Assembly: GCF_002157855.1 (NCBI RefSeq)
Contig: NZ_CP020880.1
Span: 620,001-684,000, forward strand
Length of the DNA stretch: 64,000 nt
Direction of reading: 5' to 3'
Source: Sutcliffiella horikoshii
GTDB lineage: Bacteria; Bacillota; Bacilli; Bacillales; Bacillaceae_I
Shown: piece after piece, positions 4,662-62,660 of the stretch
How the letters are laid out: every line of letters begins with the position of its first letter
Numbering within the stretch: position 1 is the first letter of the stretch
The notes under the pieces: generated by a model
Seen by the model: the letters and a program-made list of their open reading frames with translations, nothing else
Database searches by the model: none
What the model was told of the DNA's origin: nothing
Translations under genes and position numbers: made by a program

Positions 4662-4758
4662 GTTATCTGTGTGGTAGTATAGGTAGGTTCTTCTTACGAA
4701 TCATCGAAAAATGCACTTTTTTTCGAAAAAATAGCCATTTTTGGTAAGGAATTTTAGG

Positions 4759-4841
4759 TTCGGACAACTTTTCACAGGTTGAATTTTTGGTTCGGTCAAC
4801 TTTGGAAAAACTTCGGTCAAAATTGCGAAATCTTCGGACAT
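4759..4841 (-). repeat. Keyword array A: TTCGGTCAA at 21/32 bp spacing
   Basis: The 9-mer TTCGG(T/A)CAA begins at 4759, 4791 and 4812, with TTCGGACAT at 4833, giving intervals of 32, 21 and 21 bp. The spacer sequence is not repeated. Read on the minus strand the keyword is TTGACCGAA/TTGTCCGAA, the same as array B. The array occupies the 570 bp gap between the dehydrogenase and PadR genes, which holds no other gene. Confidence 0.8.
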
Positions 4842-16517: not shown

Positions 16518-17915
16518 TTAAACTACATGCAGGGCTTCCTCTTGAATACTTTGGCTTTGGCGATACTCTTCGGCAAGCAAGGTGGTTGTAAACTCAACTG
16601 TTGGATCAATATCTTGTACCAACTCTTGTAAACTTGCCACATCTGCATAAAAGAATTCTTTTCTTAAGTTGATTTTATTTACTCGCTTTTCTGCTAGTCG
16701 CTCATGTATTGCTTGCTCCAAGCCTACTGCATTATCACTAAATACCATGGCGTGGATGTCAAATCTGAACGGGACAGATGCATTTCCTAATTCATCTATT
16801 CGGTCTTGCGGATTTAAACGGCGGGTCATACCCACTTTAAACATTTGATTCCCAAAAGAACCGAGATTGGAAATTACATAGACATAACCAGCACGACCAT
16901 TTGCTCGTTTTACAATTTCCTCTTTTTGCTCCTCAAGTTGGTTTACTTGTTGTGTTAATTCTTCTAATCGCTCCGCTAGAGCCATTCGTTTTTCAGGGTC
17001 AGCTTCTTTCTCTAATAACTCTCGATTTTTAGCTAACTCTTGTTGATATTTTTCTGCTTCTTTCTCTAATTTTTTCTTTTCTTCTTCTAATATACGGCGC
17101 TCTTCTGCTTCTAGTTTCATTTGTTCTCTAATCAAACGTTGCTCTTCTTTTTCTTTTTCTTTTTGCACATAATACTTATATTCTATTTGAATTGCATTAT
17201 AGAATAAGGGTTCTAATTCGGTTAGGAACTTTGTGATAGTTGGAAGAATACTCGCATTTCCTTCCCCGCAAATGGTTAAGTATTTATCAATTAAAGCTTT
17301 TGCCTCAGACTCCATCTGGGTTAAGTTAGTGTATTTTAATTTATGCAGTATATTTTGTAATTCTGCTTTAAGCCCAATGACCATCAAGTGGTAGATGGTT
17401 TTATTTGCTTTCGTATTATATCTTCCTTCATATGCTTTTAGAAGCTTTGTAATTTCACGGTTGTTGGCTGTCATTTCTTTCTTTAATAACTTAGAATCTT
17501 GATGGTGCAAATTTAACTGTACTAATGTTTCTAGAACTCCTTCTCCTAAGGCACTCTCTAGAATTGATAATTCTTCTGCAATTAAATCGTAGTTTACTGC
17601 ATTTGGAAACTTATCTATTAGTGTTTTAATTCCTACGCTATCTGCTTTAAATTTTTTCGCAGCGTTTGTTAGCTTCGTAACTTTCTTTTCAACGGAACTA
17701 AGATTATCCATGGTTTCAGAAAGCTTTGAGTCAGCGGCAACCCTTTGTTGCACTAATAAATCCAACTCAGATTGAATAGAAGCCTTTGCTTCTAGCTTAA
17801 TAGATTCCACCAACTGCTCTTTTTGATTTAGTGTTTGTTCTAATTCTATTAAAAGGCGCTTTTTTTCCTCTAGTGAACGTTCTAAATGAAACCATTCTTT
17901 AATTTTTTTAAACAT
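16518..17915 (-). CDS. DUF4041 coiled-coil protein with C-terminal T5orf172 (GIY-YIG) nuclease domain
   Basis: The 465-residue protein begins with a long coiled coil (ERSLEEKKRLLIELEQTLN), then the DUF4041 region at about 90-230, a second charged coiled coil at about 240-335, and a T5orf172-type GIY-YIG domain from about 344. That domain shows GYVYVISN, MFKVGMTRR, LEQAIHERL and NLRKEFF. Phage T5orf172-like domains cut DNA, and the DUF4041 combination is frequent near defence genes. ATG after AGGAGGG. It is divergent from the NERD-helicase gene at the edge of the nuclease island, with its own promoter. Confidence 0.85.
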   Translation of the reverse strand: MFKKIKEWFHLERSLEEKKRLLIELEQTLNQKEQLVESIKLEAKASIQSELDLLVQQRVAADSKLSETMDNLSSVEKKVTKLTNAAKKFKADSVGIKTLIDKFPNAVNYDLIAEELSILESALGEGVLETLVQLNLHHQDSKLLKKEMTANNREITKLLKAYEGRYNTKANKTIYHLMVIGLKAELQNILHKLKYTNLTQMESEAKALIDKYLTICGEGNASILPTITKFLTELEPLFYNAIQIEYKYYVQKEKEKEEQRLIREQMKLEAEERRILEEEKKKLEKEAEKYQQELAKNRELLEKEADPEKRMALAERLEELTQQVNQLEEQKEEIVKRANGRAGYVYVISNLGSFGNQMFKVGMTRRLNPQDRIDELGNASVPFRFDIHAMVFSDNAVGLEQAIHERLAEKRVNKINLRKEFFYADVASLQELVQDIDPTVEFTTTLLAEEYRQSQSIQEEALHVV

Positions 17916-40361: not shown

Positions 40362-40475
40362 CTCAACCCACCAAAGACGAACATTAAAATAGGTATTTAT
40401 AATTAATATTCGGATTTTCGTTGATATTCCAATGTGCATTTGTTATATTAGGATAGTAGTAAAATTAAATATATT

Positions 40476-40548
40476 TACTCGTATATACTCGGTAATATGG
40501 TCTGAGTGTCTCTACCCGGTTCCCATGAAAGAACTGGACTACGATTGA
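40476..40548 (+). promoter_or_regulatory. Guanine-type purine riboswitch
   Basis: The aptamer shows P2 ACTCGG / TCTGAGT around TAATATGG, the conserved TCTCTACC, P3 CCGGTTC / GAACTGG with loop CCATGAAA, and the J3-1 strand GACTACG. The pyrimidine that pairs with ligand is C (GACTACG, not GATTA), so guanine or hypoxanthine is the expected ligand. It lies 170 bases before the nucleosidase start, and T-rich hairpin sequence follows as expression platform. Confidence 0.88.
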
Positions 40549-40722
40549 AAGTATAGGGAAATTCCGCTTTTTTGCTGATTCCAACTTTTGATGCAGGGCT
40601 ATTTCTCTGCGTCGTTATTTATACTTGAACTCGTAGGTGTAGAGGGTAGAAATTATTCTATTTTCTAGGCCTTTTTCTTTTGACCAGAGCAGCAAAAAAA
40701 TACTACTTAGGAGAGATTATGT

Positions 40723-41743: not shown

Positions 41744-41952
41744 ATGTCCGAAGATTTTCGATTTTTGACCGAAGATTTCGAAAAGTTGGCCGAAGTTTCA
41801 GCAGAGTTGACCGAAGATTGACGGTAATTGACCGAACGAAATTTTAGGGTGTCCAAAGGTGGTCAAAAGTTGACCGAATGTCGCGTTGATTTGTCCAAAC
41901 TCCTCATTATTTACCTTCTTAATTGTCCGAAGCATGAGGATAATTGTCCGAA
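41744..41952 (+). repeat. Keyword array B: TTGACCGAA/TTGTCCGAA at 20-21 or 32 bp
   Basis: Units begin at 41744, 41765, 41786, 41807, 41828, 41850, 41870, 41891, 41923 and 41943, giving intervals of 21, 21, 21, 21, 22, 20, 21, 32 and 20 bp. The keyword is TTG(A/T)CCGAA (two units TCCAAA). The 11-12 bp between keywords differ. It lies in a 500 bp gene-free gap between the nucleosidase terminator and the convergent nuclease gene. A 71-codon frame from 41828 is a shadow. Confidence 0.85.
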
Positions 41953-42112
41953 CCAAATTTTACTCACAAAAAAAGAGTCATTTTCTTTAAAAAAGTTGTA
42001 TTTTACTAACAGAAAAGCAGTGGAAGCGAAGGAGGTACCTTGACTGCACAAACGCAAGTCTCTAATAAAAAAAGAACAGAACCCCTAAAGAGTTCCGTCC
42101 CTCTACACCCCC

Positions 42113-44026: not shown

Positions 44027-44929
44027 CTACAATCCGACTTCATCCACCGCATAAGTAGCATCCTCATTACTGAATCCTTCAAATTCTAGCTGTTGGATTA
44101 AGCCGCTTCTTGAGAATGCAGTGTAATCAAGGTAGTCTTGTGCCATTATAACTGCTTGGGCTCTCCAGTCTACTTGGAGATTATCTACTGCATAAGTAGC
44201 ATCTGCATTGCTGAACCCTTCAAACTCAAGCTGTTGGATCAAGCCAGTTCTTGAGAATGCACTGTAGTCCAGGTAATCTTGAGCTGTTTGGACTGCTTGG
44301 GCTTGCCAGTCTACTTGAAGCTTATCAACGGCATAAGTAGCATCAGCATTACCGAACCCCTCATATTCTAACTGAGCAATTAAGCCGGGTCTTGAAAATG
44401 ATGTATAGTTAAGGTAATCTTGTGCCATTTGAACTGCTTGGGTTTGTGACATTGTTTCTGCATTTCTTGCTGCTTCCTCGGCCTCTTTTTTAGCTTGTTC
44501 TTCTGCCTCTTTCTTGGCCTGTTCTTCGGCTTCAATCTTAGCTTGCTCTTCTGCCTCTATCTTGGCCTGCTCTTCGGCCTCTTTCTTGGCTTGTTCTTCC
44601 GCATCTATCTTAGCTTGCTCTTCTGCCTCTTTCTTGGCTTGTTCTTCCGCATCTATCTTAGCTTGCTCTTCGGCCTCATTCTTAGCTTCTTCTTCAGCTT
44701 GTTCCTCTGTCTCTATTACTTCGCTCTTTACTGCAATCTCCTTTGTGGGTGGTGTGGTTATTCCAAATAAAATGAAAAATGCTACTGTTGCAGTTCCAAA
44801 ATAAATCACCACATACTTTCTTTTTCTTTTGGCTTCGGGAGACCACGATAAAACTATACCGGGCTTAATCATGCCAATAACAAATGCTAAGAATGAAATA
44901 AGAGATAAAATTAAGAAGAAATCATCCAT
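44027..44929 (-). CDS. Membrane-anchored triple Ltp-domain protein
   Basis: The 300-residue protein has two N-terminal membrane helices (LILSLISFLAFVIGMIKPG and YFGTATVAFFILFGI). A linker with nine EEQA units of 8 residues (EEQAKKEA, EEQAKIDA, EEQAKIEA) follows at about 80-155, then three 45-residue Ltp (PF07553) repeats, each AVxMAQDYLxYxxFSR, LIxQLExEGF and DATYAVD. Ltp proteins of Streptococcus phage TP-J34 block DNA injection of superinfecting phage. The helix pair is an Ltp HTH-like unit. The orientation and rod-like linker suit an extracellular display. Confidence 0.85.
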   Translation of the reverse strand: MDDFFLILSLISFLAFVIGMIKPGIVLSWSPEAKRKRKYVVIYFGTATVAFFILFGITTPPTKEIAVKSEVIETEEQAEEEAKNEAEEQAKIDAEEQAKKEAEEQAKIDAEEQAKKEAEEQAKIEAEEQAKIEAEEQAKKEAEEQAKKEAEEAARNAETMSQTQAVQMAQDYLNYTSFSRPGLIAQLEYEGFGNADATYAVDKLQVDWQAQAVQTAQDYLDYSAFSRTGLIQQLEFEGFSNADATYAVDNLQVDWRAQAVIMAQDYLDYTAFSRSGLIQQLEFEGFSNEDATYAVDEVGL

Positions 44930-56230: not shown

Positions 56231-56486
56231 TGACAAAATATGATGGGAAAATTTAGAGTTTCAGCTTTTCATAAATTGGGAATGTGAAAAAAAGGAAGTA
56301 TACTAGAGCGAATGTTGTGTGAAAACGTGGAATTCCGTGTATTGAGATGGGAGAAAAGTTACAGATTTTGGAGTAGGAGCTTGCTATCTAGATAAAACAT
56401 AAACCATAACACCTATTCTAAACAAGTTGGCAAATTGGTAAAATTAAACTAACTGTTTATAAATGAACGTGGGTGGTGATTGCGAA

Positions 56487-58163
56487 ATGAAAATTTTAGA
56501 AGTAGAATCGCTTCATATGGAACTTCAGTCCATGCTTGAAAAGTTGGAGTTGCAGAAGGAAGCAGTGGAAAAGATACATAATGATGTCATGGGGATAGTT
56601 GGTCTGGAAGATGCCTTGAAGGGGCAAGGTGGACAGGCAATTCGAGCATTTTATCAGGACTGCCATATTCCATTTTTGACCTACTATCTATCCGTGCTTG
56701 ATGAATTCAAGAACACGTTAAATGGAATGAAAAGTGCTCTCCAGTCGGTTGAACCATCAAGTTCAGGCTATATTAATGAAAGCTTTTTGCAAAACGATTT
56801 GCCGCGCGCACTGGATAATGCAAGGCGAATGACAACAGATTTAGCAAATGAAACAAATCAGGTTCTCTATTCTGTAAGCGACATTGTTTCCTTGCCAAAC
56901 TTAAGGGAAGATGGTTTTGTCGATCAGGTCCGGGTGGCCGAAAAGGATGTTGATCAAACGCTCGAGAAACTGCATGTATTTGATCAGGAGCAAACCAGGA
57001 AACTAGATGCTGTTTCAGAGAGTAGCCAGGTTGCATCCGGTTATATTGAGCAGATTAATTCCATGTTCACTGCGAAAAAAATCAGCATTAGCGGGTACGA
57101 ATCGGGTTCGTTGCTGGAGAAGTTGGCGAATGAAGCGGTGGGGGCTGGGGTGAATGCACCTGGTAGTGCTTCGGGTACGGCGCTGAATGGGAATTCGATT
57201 AGCGAACGTGCACTGAATTTATTGTTGTCGCATGAAAGTAATATGAGTGCGGATGGACCGGGTACGGAAGGTGAGTCTAAAAGCCTTTTCCATGCCATTA
57301 AGGATGGCGCCTTTGATTCCTTCGCTCCTCTTGCGGTGTTAGTGGCAGCGCATAAGTCTAATCTTCTTCGTATTGAATACACCAAGAAGAAGAATCATTA
57401 TACGTTTAAGTATAATAGGAAGGTTTTGCACTTTCTTAAAGGGAAAATTGGGCCTGAATGGACAAGGAAGCTCATTCAAAAGTTTAATAGAACATCGAAA
57501 AGCTATAGAAATATAGAGAAAACACTAAAAGCTCAAAAGGCGAGTGTTTTAAAGCGCAAGGAATTTAAGGATCCTAGAACTGCGAGTCAGAAGGTAAAGG
57601 GCGGTGTTTGGAAGTTAGCAACGCAAAACCGGTCTCTCCATGAAAATGTTAAAAATAAGATAGTTAAACACTCCTCACGAGAAATGGTCATTCCAAAGGA
57701 AGCCTTTAAGAAAGTGGCGGCAAAGGCCTCAGGTGTCGGAGCTGCAATAGTTGGCACCTACTCTGCGGTTACTAGTATAAGCGACAGGTGGAGCGAAGGA
57801 GACGGCTTGCAAGGTAAGGAAAAATATAATGTACGCGGACGAGTGGTTGCAGAAGAGGTTAACAAAGTAGCAGGTAATGTAACTGGCGCAGCTGTCGGGG
57901 CTTACGCTGGGGCAGCAATTGGAGGTCTACTTTCTGGTCCGTTTGCACCATTTGGAGCTGCAGCAGGAGCTGTAATCGGTAGTGCCATAGGGGCCACAGT
58001 CGGCGAATGGGCCTCAAAGTACACTAATAAATGGGCAAGTGATGCTGGTGCTGCCGTTGGCGAAAAAATTCATGATGTTAAGGAAAAAGCCAAAGATGCA
58101 CTGGATGGAGCAAAAAATGCACTAAGTGATGCAAAAGATTCATTGTTCGGTTGGATGGGTTAA
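56487..58163 (+). CDS. LXG-domain polymorphic toxin with glycine-zipper C terminus
   Basis: The 558-residue protein has an LXG domain over about the first 210 residues (KILEVESLHMELQSMLEKLE, FYQDCHIPFLTYYLSVL), predicted to be secreted by a type VII (ESX) machinery. A basic middle follows, and from about residue 461 to 507 a Gly/Ala-rich hydrophobic region GNVTGAAVGAYAGAAIGG and further GAAAGAVIGSAIGATVGE, then an amphipathic helix. This is a glycine-zipper, as in the pore-forming TelE type of LXG toxin. ATG after GGTGGTGA. Three small membrane proteins follow as candidate immunity. Confidence 0.85.
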   Translation: MKILEVESLHMELQSMLEKLELQKEAVEKIHNDVMGIVGLEDALKGQGGQAIRAFYQDCHIPFLTYYLSVLDEFKNTLNGMKSALQSVEPSSSGYINESFLQNDLPRALDNARRMTTDLANETNQVLYSVSDIVSLPNLREDGFVDQVRVAEKDVDQTLEKLHVFDQEQTRKLDAVSESSQVASGYIEQINSMFTAKKISISGYESGSLLEKLANEAVGAGVNAPGSASGTALNGNSISERALNLLLSHESNMSADGPGTEGESKSLFHAIKDGAFDSFAPLAVLVAAHKSNLLRIEYTKKKNHYTFKYNRKVLHFLKGKIGPEWTRKLIQKFNRTSKSYRNIEKTLKAQKASVLKRKEFKDPRTASQKVKGGVWKLATQNRSLHENVKNKIVKHSSREMVIPKEAFKKVAAKASGVGAAIVGTYSAVTSISDRWSEGDGLQGKEKYNVRGRVVAEEVNKVAGNVTGAAVGAYAGAAIGGLLSGPFAPFGAAAGAVIGSAIGATVGEWASKYTNKWASDAGAAVGEKIHDVKEKAKDALDGAKNALSDAKDSLFGWMG

Positions 58164-60126: not shown

Positions 60127-60161
60127 TGGTTTTTGTCGCTTCGCTTGTATTGGGGGGAGTT

Positions 60162-60270
60162 TGGACAGTAAAGTGGGGTTAACGGACAGTATTTTCATTT
60201 TTGCGACAGTATTGTGGTGATTTCCGACAGTAAAGGGGTGTGTTTGGACAGTAAGTGGAATCAGACGGTA
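60162..60270 (+). repeat. Keyword array D: GGACAGTA at 20-21 bp
   Basis: GACAGTA starts at 60164, 60185, 60205, 60226 and 60247 (intervals 21, 20, 21, 21), and GACGGTA at 60264. Spacers differ. The first unit, GGACAGTAAAGTGGGGTTAAC, lines up with array F read on the other strand (GGAAAACAAATTGGGGCTAAC). It fills the gap before the MFS gene. Confidence 0.85.
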
Positions 60271-62508: not shown

Positions 62509-62660
62509 GTCCGTTCGGGCGAATTATTTTCCGGTCACGTGATTTTATTTCCCGTTAGCCCCAATTTGTTTTCCAAACTTACCGATATATTTTCCGTTAC
62601 GCCCGTTTTATTTTCCAAAGTCACCAATTTATTTTCCGTTACACCAAATTTACCTTCCAT
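62509..62660 (-). repeat. Keyword array F: TATTTTCC(G/A) at exactly 21 bp
   Basis: The CC of TATTTTCC falls at 62531, 62552, 62573, 62594, 62615, 62636 and 62657, six exact 21-bp steps, with a possible extra unit at 62511. Keywords alternate between TTTTCCGTTA and TTTTCCAAA. The frame 62506-62793 that would encode heptapeptides such as LFSVTPN is not supported as a gene. Confidence 0.88.

Follow-up and report, generated by a model that had tools for sequence, protein, structure and literature searches.

Why should an intergenic stretch of a bacterial chromosome spell much the same nine-letter word ten times over, at intervals close to whole turns of the double helix? The question is raised by array B, which lies in the window, i.e., the whole 64,000-nucleotide stretch of Sutcliffiella horikoshii DNA analysed here. 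In direct reading and in a script re-check, its words start at 41744, 41765, 41786, 41807, 41828, 41849, 41870, 41891, 41923 and 41944 on the + strand, so that the interval is 21 bp eight times and 32 bp once. The first-pass annotation had reported ten copies of TTG(A/T)CCGAA at intervals of 20, 21, 22 or 32 bp; ten words are indeed present, but only six are exact, the others being ATGTCCGAA, TTGGCCGAA, GTGTCCAAA (two mismatches) and TTGTCCAAA, and while the steps of 21 and 32 bp stand, those of 20 and 22 bp are absent. Array A bears out its earlier description as an inverted array with the same keyword at 21, 21 and 32 bp: by reading and by script, its words start on the − strand at 4841, 4820, 4799 and 4767, three of these match TTGWCCGAA exactly, and the first is ATGTCCGAA. 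Both arrays open with AAATGTCCGAAGATTT, a common start that had also been pointed out, and the spacers between words do differ, as had been claimed. The window contains nine exact TTGWCCGAA against 1.0 expected, a count reached by 0 of 100 dinucleotide shuffles (maximum 3), and TRF reports at these arrays short, imperfect 21-bp arrays and nothing more. Arrays A and B are thereby confirmed as real phased word arrays. The genes flanking array B are convergent and encode a phosphorylase-superfamily protein and endonuclease I; array A has a zinc-type dehydrogenase gene on one side and a PadR/DUF2812 pair on the other. Near array B, a purine riboswitch (RF00167, 78.3 bits; 40459-40561) lies just upstream of the preceding phosphorylase-superfamily gene, and a short protein at 43446-43811 matches a stand-alone DnaA N-terminal domain (PF11638, E 3.5e-15). 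Elsewhere in the window, 44027-44929 encodes host surface-exposed lipoprotein repeats (PF07553), found in three stretches and accompanied by coding repeats of 24/48 bp.

Table 1. Phased word arrays in the window and their tails, with strand and basis of delineation.
Feature	Positions	Strand	Basis
Array B: ten F1 words, nine steps (21 bp seven times, 32, 21)	41744..41952	+	direct reading and script re-check
AT-rich tail of the F1 element after array B	41953..42020	+	alignable in orthologous copies; consensus
Array A: four F1 words (21, 21, 32 bp), short copy of the F1 element	4759..4841	−	direct reading and script
Presumed tail of array A	4700..4758	−	position relative to F1 consensus
F2 array: TTTAT-AGT/AAT/AAG-CCA at 20 bp, tail ending ATATAAATGCCATTTGACAAA	56117..56225	+	
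F3 array: TTTACTGTCC(A/G)AA and variants (GGACAGTA on the + strand), 20-21 bp	60160..60258	−	
F4 array: word TTTATCAACCA at 20-21 bp, tail ATGCCATTCGGCAAA	61703..61810	+	
F5 array: TTTATTTTCC(G/A) and variants, 21 bp, alternating spacers (42-bp dimer)	62524..62660	+	

The two arrays are not independent assemblies: both are copies of a single dispersed element of fixed architecture, F1, whose presence at a given locus varies among relatives, and the inversion of A relative to B across 37 kb looks incidental. The F1 word pair gives 19 matches at about eleven loci in the own genome. Of 16 genomes from the genus, 13 contain it, and the reversed pattern has no match. Since the matches per genome within the genus range from 0 to 71, nothing essential depends on F1. 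A stricter pattern returned 83 stretches from a named genome collection, 82 of them in S. horikoshii or close kin (Bacillus sp. RO1, RO2 and CHD6a, and B. horikoshii); the remaining one, Geosporobacter L065, is apparently a coding repeat of heptads and was excluded. When 100 F1 arrays from fetched loci were anchored on their first word, with word variants allowed, common offsets emerged at 0 (100 arrays), 21 (96), 42 (95), 63 (89), 84 (89), 105 (70), 126/127 (43/28), 148 (42, with a further 18 at 147), 179/180 (28/34) and 200/201 bp (27/31). These fall near multiples of 10.5 bp; for most loci the search pattern held one 21-bp step, so that the first step is built in and the later offsets are free, and the sample includes orthologues, 103 elements reducing to 39 independent sites. 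The consensus begins with AAATGTCCGAAG, continues with TTGACCGAAG at 21-bp steps separated by GWTTT...AAG spacers, and passes through TGACCGAAC/TGTCCGAAC words into an AT-rich tail; all words share one orientation, with inverted words absent from the consensus. None of the 100 arrays lies within an ORF of at least 450 bases, and the flanking genes, both on the + strand in 24 and both on the − strand in 27 of 83 cases, reveal no preferred strand. At locus B, where the intergenic DNA beside the gene was read in ten relatives, the array is full in three, truncated in one and absent in six; in the orthologues that lack it, the whole intergenic stretch differs and a clean junction is not seen at this one locus.

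Several side observations concern F1 copies elsewhere. Head-to-tail pairs 323 bp apart occupy orthologous places in three genomes (L041:6308 and 6631, L102:2262 and 2585, L152:1153 and 1476), each copy having its own spacers. In Bacillus sp. RO2, what looks by eye like one and the same foreign sequence (GGAGGTAGTAT... or its inverse) interrupts three arrays (the array ends of L040 and L062, and L043:3884-4057), perhaps an insertion into F1. Ten of the about eleven F1 loci in the own genome (C1, 210-1599 kb and 2745 kb) lie on one replication arm, with arms assigned from the GC skew of sampled stretches (origin near 0, terminus near 2.05 Mb); this was not matched in other genomes among the matches listed, and no bias is claimed.

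Phased arrays in this DNA extend beyond F1. A scan of the window blind to word identity returned five intergenic arrays, all with steps of 20-21 bp or multiples thereof, whose words are those of F1, TATAGTCC, GGACAGTA, TATCAACC and TATTTTCC; the remaining matches, near 17008, 28147 and 44512, lie inside ORFs. Distances between repeated 7-mers were then compared with ten first-order simulations per segment over 624 kb of the own genome, of which 111 kb is intergenic with ORFs of 100 codons masked. Distances of 19-21 bp were observed 76 times against 22 expected, those of 41-43 bp 70 against 21, and those of 51-52 bp 273 against 12, and all others pooled amounted to 411 against 387. With the F1 and TTTAT arrays (described below) removed, 61 against 20 (19-21 bp) and 57 against 22 (41-43 bp) remained. 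A stricter mask (70 codons, 76 kb) gave 38 against 16 and 43 against 13, and removing the F1 and TTTAT arrays under this mask shrank the excess to 28 against 16 and 36 against 14. The genome scan that the first-pass annotation had proposed for two- and three-turn spacings thus yields an excess at two, four and five turns but none at 30-32 bp (23 observed, 21.1 expected), which ties the three-turn step to F1 and not to the genome at large. One locus of the own genome, L173:4643, reads LKSDVST... and is coding-like; it was set aside, gene masking having already excluded it from the distance counts.

Several words in the window fit a common pattern, TTTAT-NNN-CCR. Of 397 genomes from the order, 53 contain three such words at steps of 19-22 bp; they span 24 of 135 genera and include 12 of the 15 Sutcliffiella genomes in this draw, whereas triples at steps of 24-27 bp occur in 0 of the 397; the comparison with relatives that the annotation had called for therefore favours its view of a helical phase. 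The reversed pattern matches in two of the 397 genomes. A phylum-wide draw gave 2 matching genomes of 398, both within the order, and hence 0 of the 391 outside it. The word count per array is often high, e.g., 28 in L274. By eye, a tail resembling CC(A/G)TTC..CAAAA..CGACAAA follows the last word on the 3' side of TTTAT arrays (L204-L277 and the window); it accompanies several Sutcliffiella TTTAT arrays and a few in other genera (e.g., L210, L213 and L214).

Are words and spacers maintained alike? Orthologous F1 copies were paired by their flanking DNA, with word positions taken from the family consensus; pairs from the same locus were dropped, as were those whose matched flanks all exceeded 97% identity and those in misregister, recognised by a difference of more than 20% between the early words. 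In the 87 remaining pairs, which overlap in species and loci and hence are not independent tests, the first five words, used for detection, differ at 3.9% and the early spacers at 15.7%, while divergence is 8.7% in the late words, which were not used for detection, 22.4% in the late spacers and 35.4% in the tail. In 78 of the 87, the late words diverge less than the late spacers. Words are thus better conserved than spacers at orthologous loci, and the arrays do not align as ordinary tandem repeats with conserved spacers, the outcome that the first-pass annotation had named as contrary to its proposal; that proposal, selection on the keyword and its helical phase, held in most of the tests it had suggested.

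The same data bear on replication slippage, by which the arrays would be ordinary tandem repeats whose period reflects the mechanism. Some arrays do bear the marks of recent expansion of 41-42 bp dimers, e.g., in G008 and in the large arrays of G025, and spacers are more than 0.85 identical in 4 of 79 bacterial TTTAT arrays. Across the 79, however, spacer identity is 0.51 at a core identity of 0.87, compared with 0.87 and 0.92 in eight matches from viral contigs, six of which are plain tandem repeats with alike spacers, and off-phase arrays occur in 0 of 397 genomes. Slippage is accordingly disfavoured, to the point of being extremely improbable. A coding repeat was also considered and rejected: a 21-bp step is seven codons long and an ATG lies in the first word, yet the 32- and 22-bp steps shift the frame, translation of array B from its first ATG runs into an in-frame TGA within the fourth spacer, the spacers carry stops, and column conservation shows no third-position pattern by eye. 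A CRISPR array was likewise rejected, the words being 9-11 bp long and the spacers about 8-12 bp and partly conserved.

The variable NNN core of the TTTAT words proved to follow the genome. Cores, typed from the first match per place, were tallied for 123 arrays in 34 genomes among the matches listed, the ten arrays without a majority core being dropped from the pair counts of majority cores. Among these matches, the majority core is equal in 141 of 227 same-genome pairs, in 107 of 854 same-genus pairs from different genomes and in 269 of 5247 cross-genus pairs. Word-by-word agreement over all arrays gives a similar gradient among the matches listed, 0.45 within a genome, 0.11 within a genus and 0.044 across genera, and the within-genome value was reached by 0 of 2000 shuffles (shuffle mean 0.068). 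CAG is the core at 5 of 5 G011 loci and TGT at 5 of 5 G159 loci, TAT is the majority core at 10 of 10 G118 loci and GTG prevails in G025, again among the matches listed. Scattered arrays of one genome thus often share a core. The own genome, G000, contains several cores together (AGT/AAG, CAA, CCG, TTT), as do G004, G319 and G343, and one binder per genome is therefore too simple.

Two orthologous loci reveal how cores change. The F2 locus adjoins an acetyltransferase gene, and its spacers and tail can be aligned between genomes; the first core base is A in 5 of 5 words both of G000 and of G006 (AGT, AAT, AAG) and T in 4 of 4 words both of G010 and of G012 (TGT, TAT, TAG). At the F4 locus, TTTATCAACC with a CAA core in G000, G006 and G008 is set against TTTATTGTCC and its kin, with TGT and related cores, in G010 and G012, the tail being shared as ATGCCATTCG or close variants. 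At both loci, word cores have changed in concert across the whole array. The simplest cause of such a concerted change would be an altered recognition surface acting in trans.

From these patterns we infer that the arrays probably are cooperative one-face binding platforms for a fast-diverging, putative DNA-binding protein. Each array would be a platform of double-stranded DNA and each word one site for the sequence-specific protein; sites two turns apart (three turns once in F1) would bring the bound subunits to the same face of the helix, where they could assemble cooperatively. The recognition surface of the putative binder would diverge fast and drag the words along. The role of such a platform would be chromosome-level work such as loading, anchoring or segregation, like that of a centromere or an iteron array, rather than control of neighbouring genes. 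Genome-specific words that are phased, present at many loci and altered in concert are the trace expected of a fast co-evolving DNA-binding system, and the words themselves could serve as bait for their own putative protein in a direct experiment.

Among the closest known counterparts are the iteron arrays of plasmid origins and plasmid centromere arrays, in which short direct repeats about two turns apart are bound cooperatively on one face. The F1 offsets and TTTAT steps share with them direct repeats on one helical face; the present arrays differ in being chromosomal, dispersed at many loci and without a recurrent rep- or par-like cluster, for no such cluster, nor one of replication initiator genes, recurs beside the arrays at 39 F1 and 20 other sites. 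DnaA-box clusters consist of 9-bp sites in intergenic DNA, and TTATNCACA partly resembles the DnaA box TTTATNNNCC; here, however, the core varies by genome and the words end in CCR, whereas DnaA boxes end in CACA. REP/BIME elements, which are dispersed intergenic palindromic repeats with species-specific sequence and a cognate protein, RAYT, are alike in being dispersed, intergenic and species-specific, but they are palindromic whereas the present words are direct and phased. Among Bacillus-group families, bcr1-bcr18 of the Bacillus cereus group are interspersed intergenic repeats, some of them MITE-like, and phased words do not figure in the passages of PMC3446304 that concern them.

The main rival to a binding platform is a mobile element: the arrays would be element ends or non-autonomous copies, their words IS21- or Tn7-like transposase sites, spread in trans. 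Dispersal with one fixed architecture, presence or absence by locus between relatives and tandem copies 323 bp apart also suit such an element, and the first F1 word contains TGT. As described in PMC10122671, IS21-family ends carry multiple spaced copies of element-specific words, terminal repeats to which IstA binds cooperatively; the present arrays differ in often having many more words, in a single orientation and with no opposite end. Of ten IS21 loci, four (L111, L280, L288 and L289) have istA on the + strand and so show the side upstream of it. Repeats are discernible in L280, the left end of an IS21 in G118, where several stand about 21 bp apart, and in L111 as well as L110 (G014/G004), where two stand about 22 bp apart, all with words unlike those of the arrays. 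The transposase search, which covered the IS21 family (NF033546), took in the genus and 14 other array-bearing genomes; it gave some match in 10 of the 14, five of them above the cut-off, but no match in the own genome, G000, or in the remaining four (G085, G159, G319 and G156). IS21 ends as such were rejected: G000 has no istA match, the words run one way, and inverted left and right ends were not seen. The F1 consensus has no inverted partner end and, by eye, none of the terminal inverted repeats that characterise MITEs, no transposase-like cluster recurs beside the arrays, and F1 has no match in viral contigs (one exact pattern) or plasmids (blastn). An element read by a transposase explains dispersal and fixed architecture but not orthologous conservation, since words kept better than spacers are unexpected of dead ends. 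We therefore regard a mobile origin as unlikely, albeit worth serious weight.

Could the arrays instead be decoys, that is, chromosomal copies of plasmid or phage replication or partition sites that confer immunity by titrating an initiator, much as iterons cause incompatibility? The iteron-like phasing, the occurrence of several words in one genome and a patchy distribution accord with this, yet the plasmid search, which covered the F1 words in 72,556 records, was as empty as that of the viral contigs, and most viral TTTAT matches are the plain tandem repeats noted above, which makes decoys quite improbable. A search for a phage or plasmid origin gave nothing convincing, nine phage records covering 12% of the query at E 0.2-0.7.

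A further alternative, that the words are repeated transcript motifs of a sponge or an untranslated region, draws on the intergenic position of the arrays, where read-through transcription is possible. None of six folds carried a structure signal on either strand (z-scores −0.79 to 1.01), Rfam 15 has no match at the arrays and in the whole window finds only the riboswitch at 40459-40561, no strand preference relative to flanking genes exists, and RNA offers no obvious reason for a helical spacing; we consider an RNA role very improbable.

The gene neighbourhood yielded no binder candidate: across the neighbour-gene clusters at arrays, no telling neighbour or transposase-like cluster recurs at the 39 F1 sites or at 20 sites of three other genera. 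At the former, the only clusters found at more than three sites are frames that run through the arrays and a broad ABC-ATPase cluster (nine sites); the latter gave an ABC-ATPase cluster (six loci) and a membrane-protein cluster (three). Genes beside four large arrays encode a response regulator with an ArlS-type sensor, lipoate ligase, PTS, a membrane transporter, NERD, GGDEF/EAL and similar proteins. Divergent intergenic placement was found for F1 in 10 of 83 cases (orthologues included) against 70 of 306 in the background and for 1 of 29 TTTAT arrays of other genera against 41 of 184; a second count gave 4 of 18 for F1 and 2 of 13 for Sutcliffiella TTTAT arrays, so the depletion is not firm.

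More broadly, and tentatively, the binding platforms may belong to a chromosome-wide system of this order, in which dispersed phased arrays are read by a fast-diversifying putative protein, words and protein co-evolve, and each species has its dialect of TTTAT-NNN-CCR with NNN set by the genome, the arrays serving as anchoring, loading or segregation platforms. F1 would then be a further, genus-restricted dialect, each array having a fixed layout of about ten sites. If true, such a system would account for some of the intergenic DNA that otherwise lacks annotation in these genomes. To our knowledge, no such word-dialect system has been recognised on bacterial chromosomes. Among the matches listed, the open-access full-text literature returned no description of such arrays, and of 178 papers containing one of six word strings, the 30 listed have titles on other matters.

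Two minor observations are added. An LXG-domain protein (PF04740, E 9.7e-63) is encoded at 56463-58163, adjoining the F2 array. Tandem arrays with a period of 52-53 bp, i.e., five helical turns, and with a sequence differing by locus, occur in the own genome at L164:14679, L167:16148, L172:11570, L173:9150, L174:421 and 4382, L177:8971 and L179:986, amounting to eight in 7 of 20 stretches; more were seen at L107:6623 and L155:560-880 and, in other genomes, in L323, L328, L329, L336, L340 and L349. They are also found in another genus (G319) and in G015, which has no F1 or TTTAT match but contains one 21-bp array besides several 52-53 bp arrays and hence is no negative control. Several of the 52-53 bp units hold an inverted repeat, e.g., GTCTTCAT...ATGAAGAC and ATTGTCCTCGT...ACGAGGACAAT.
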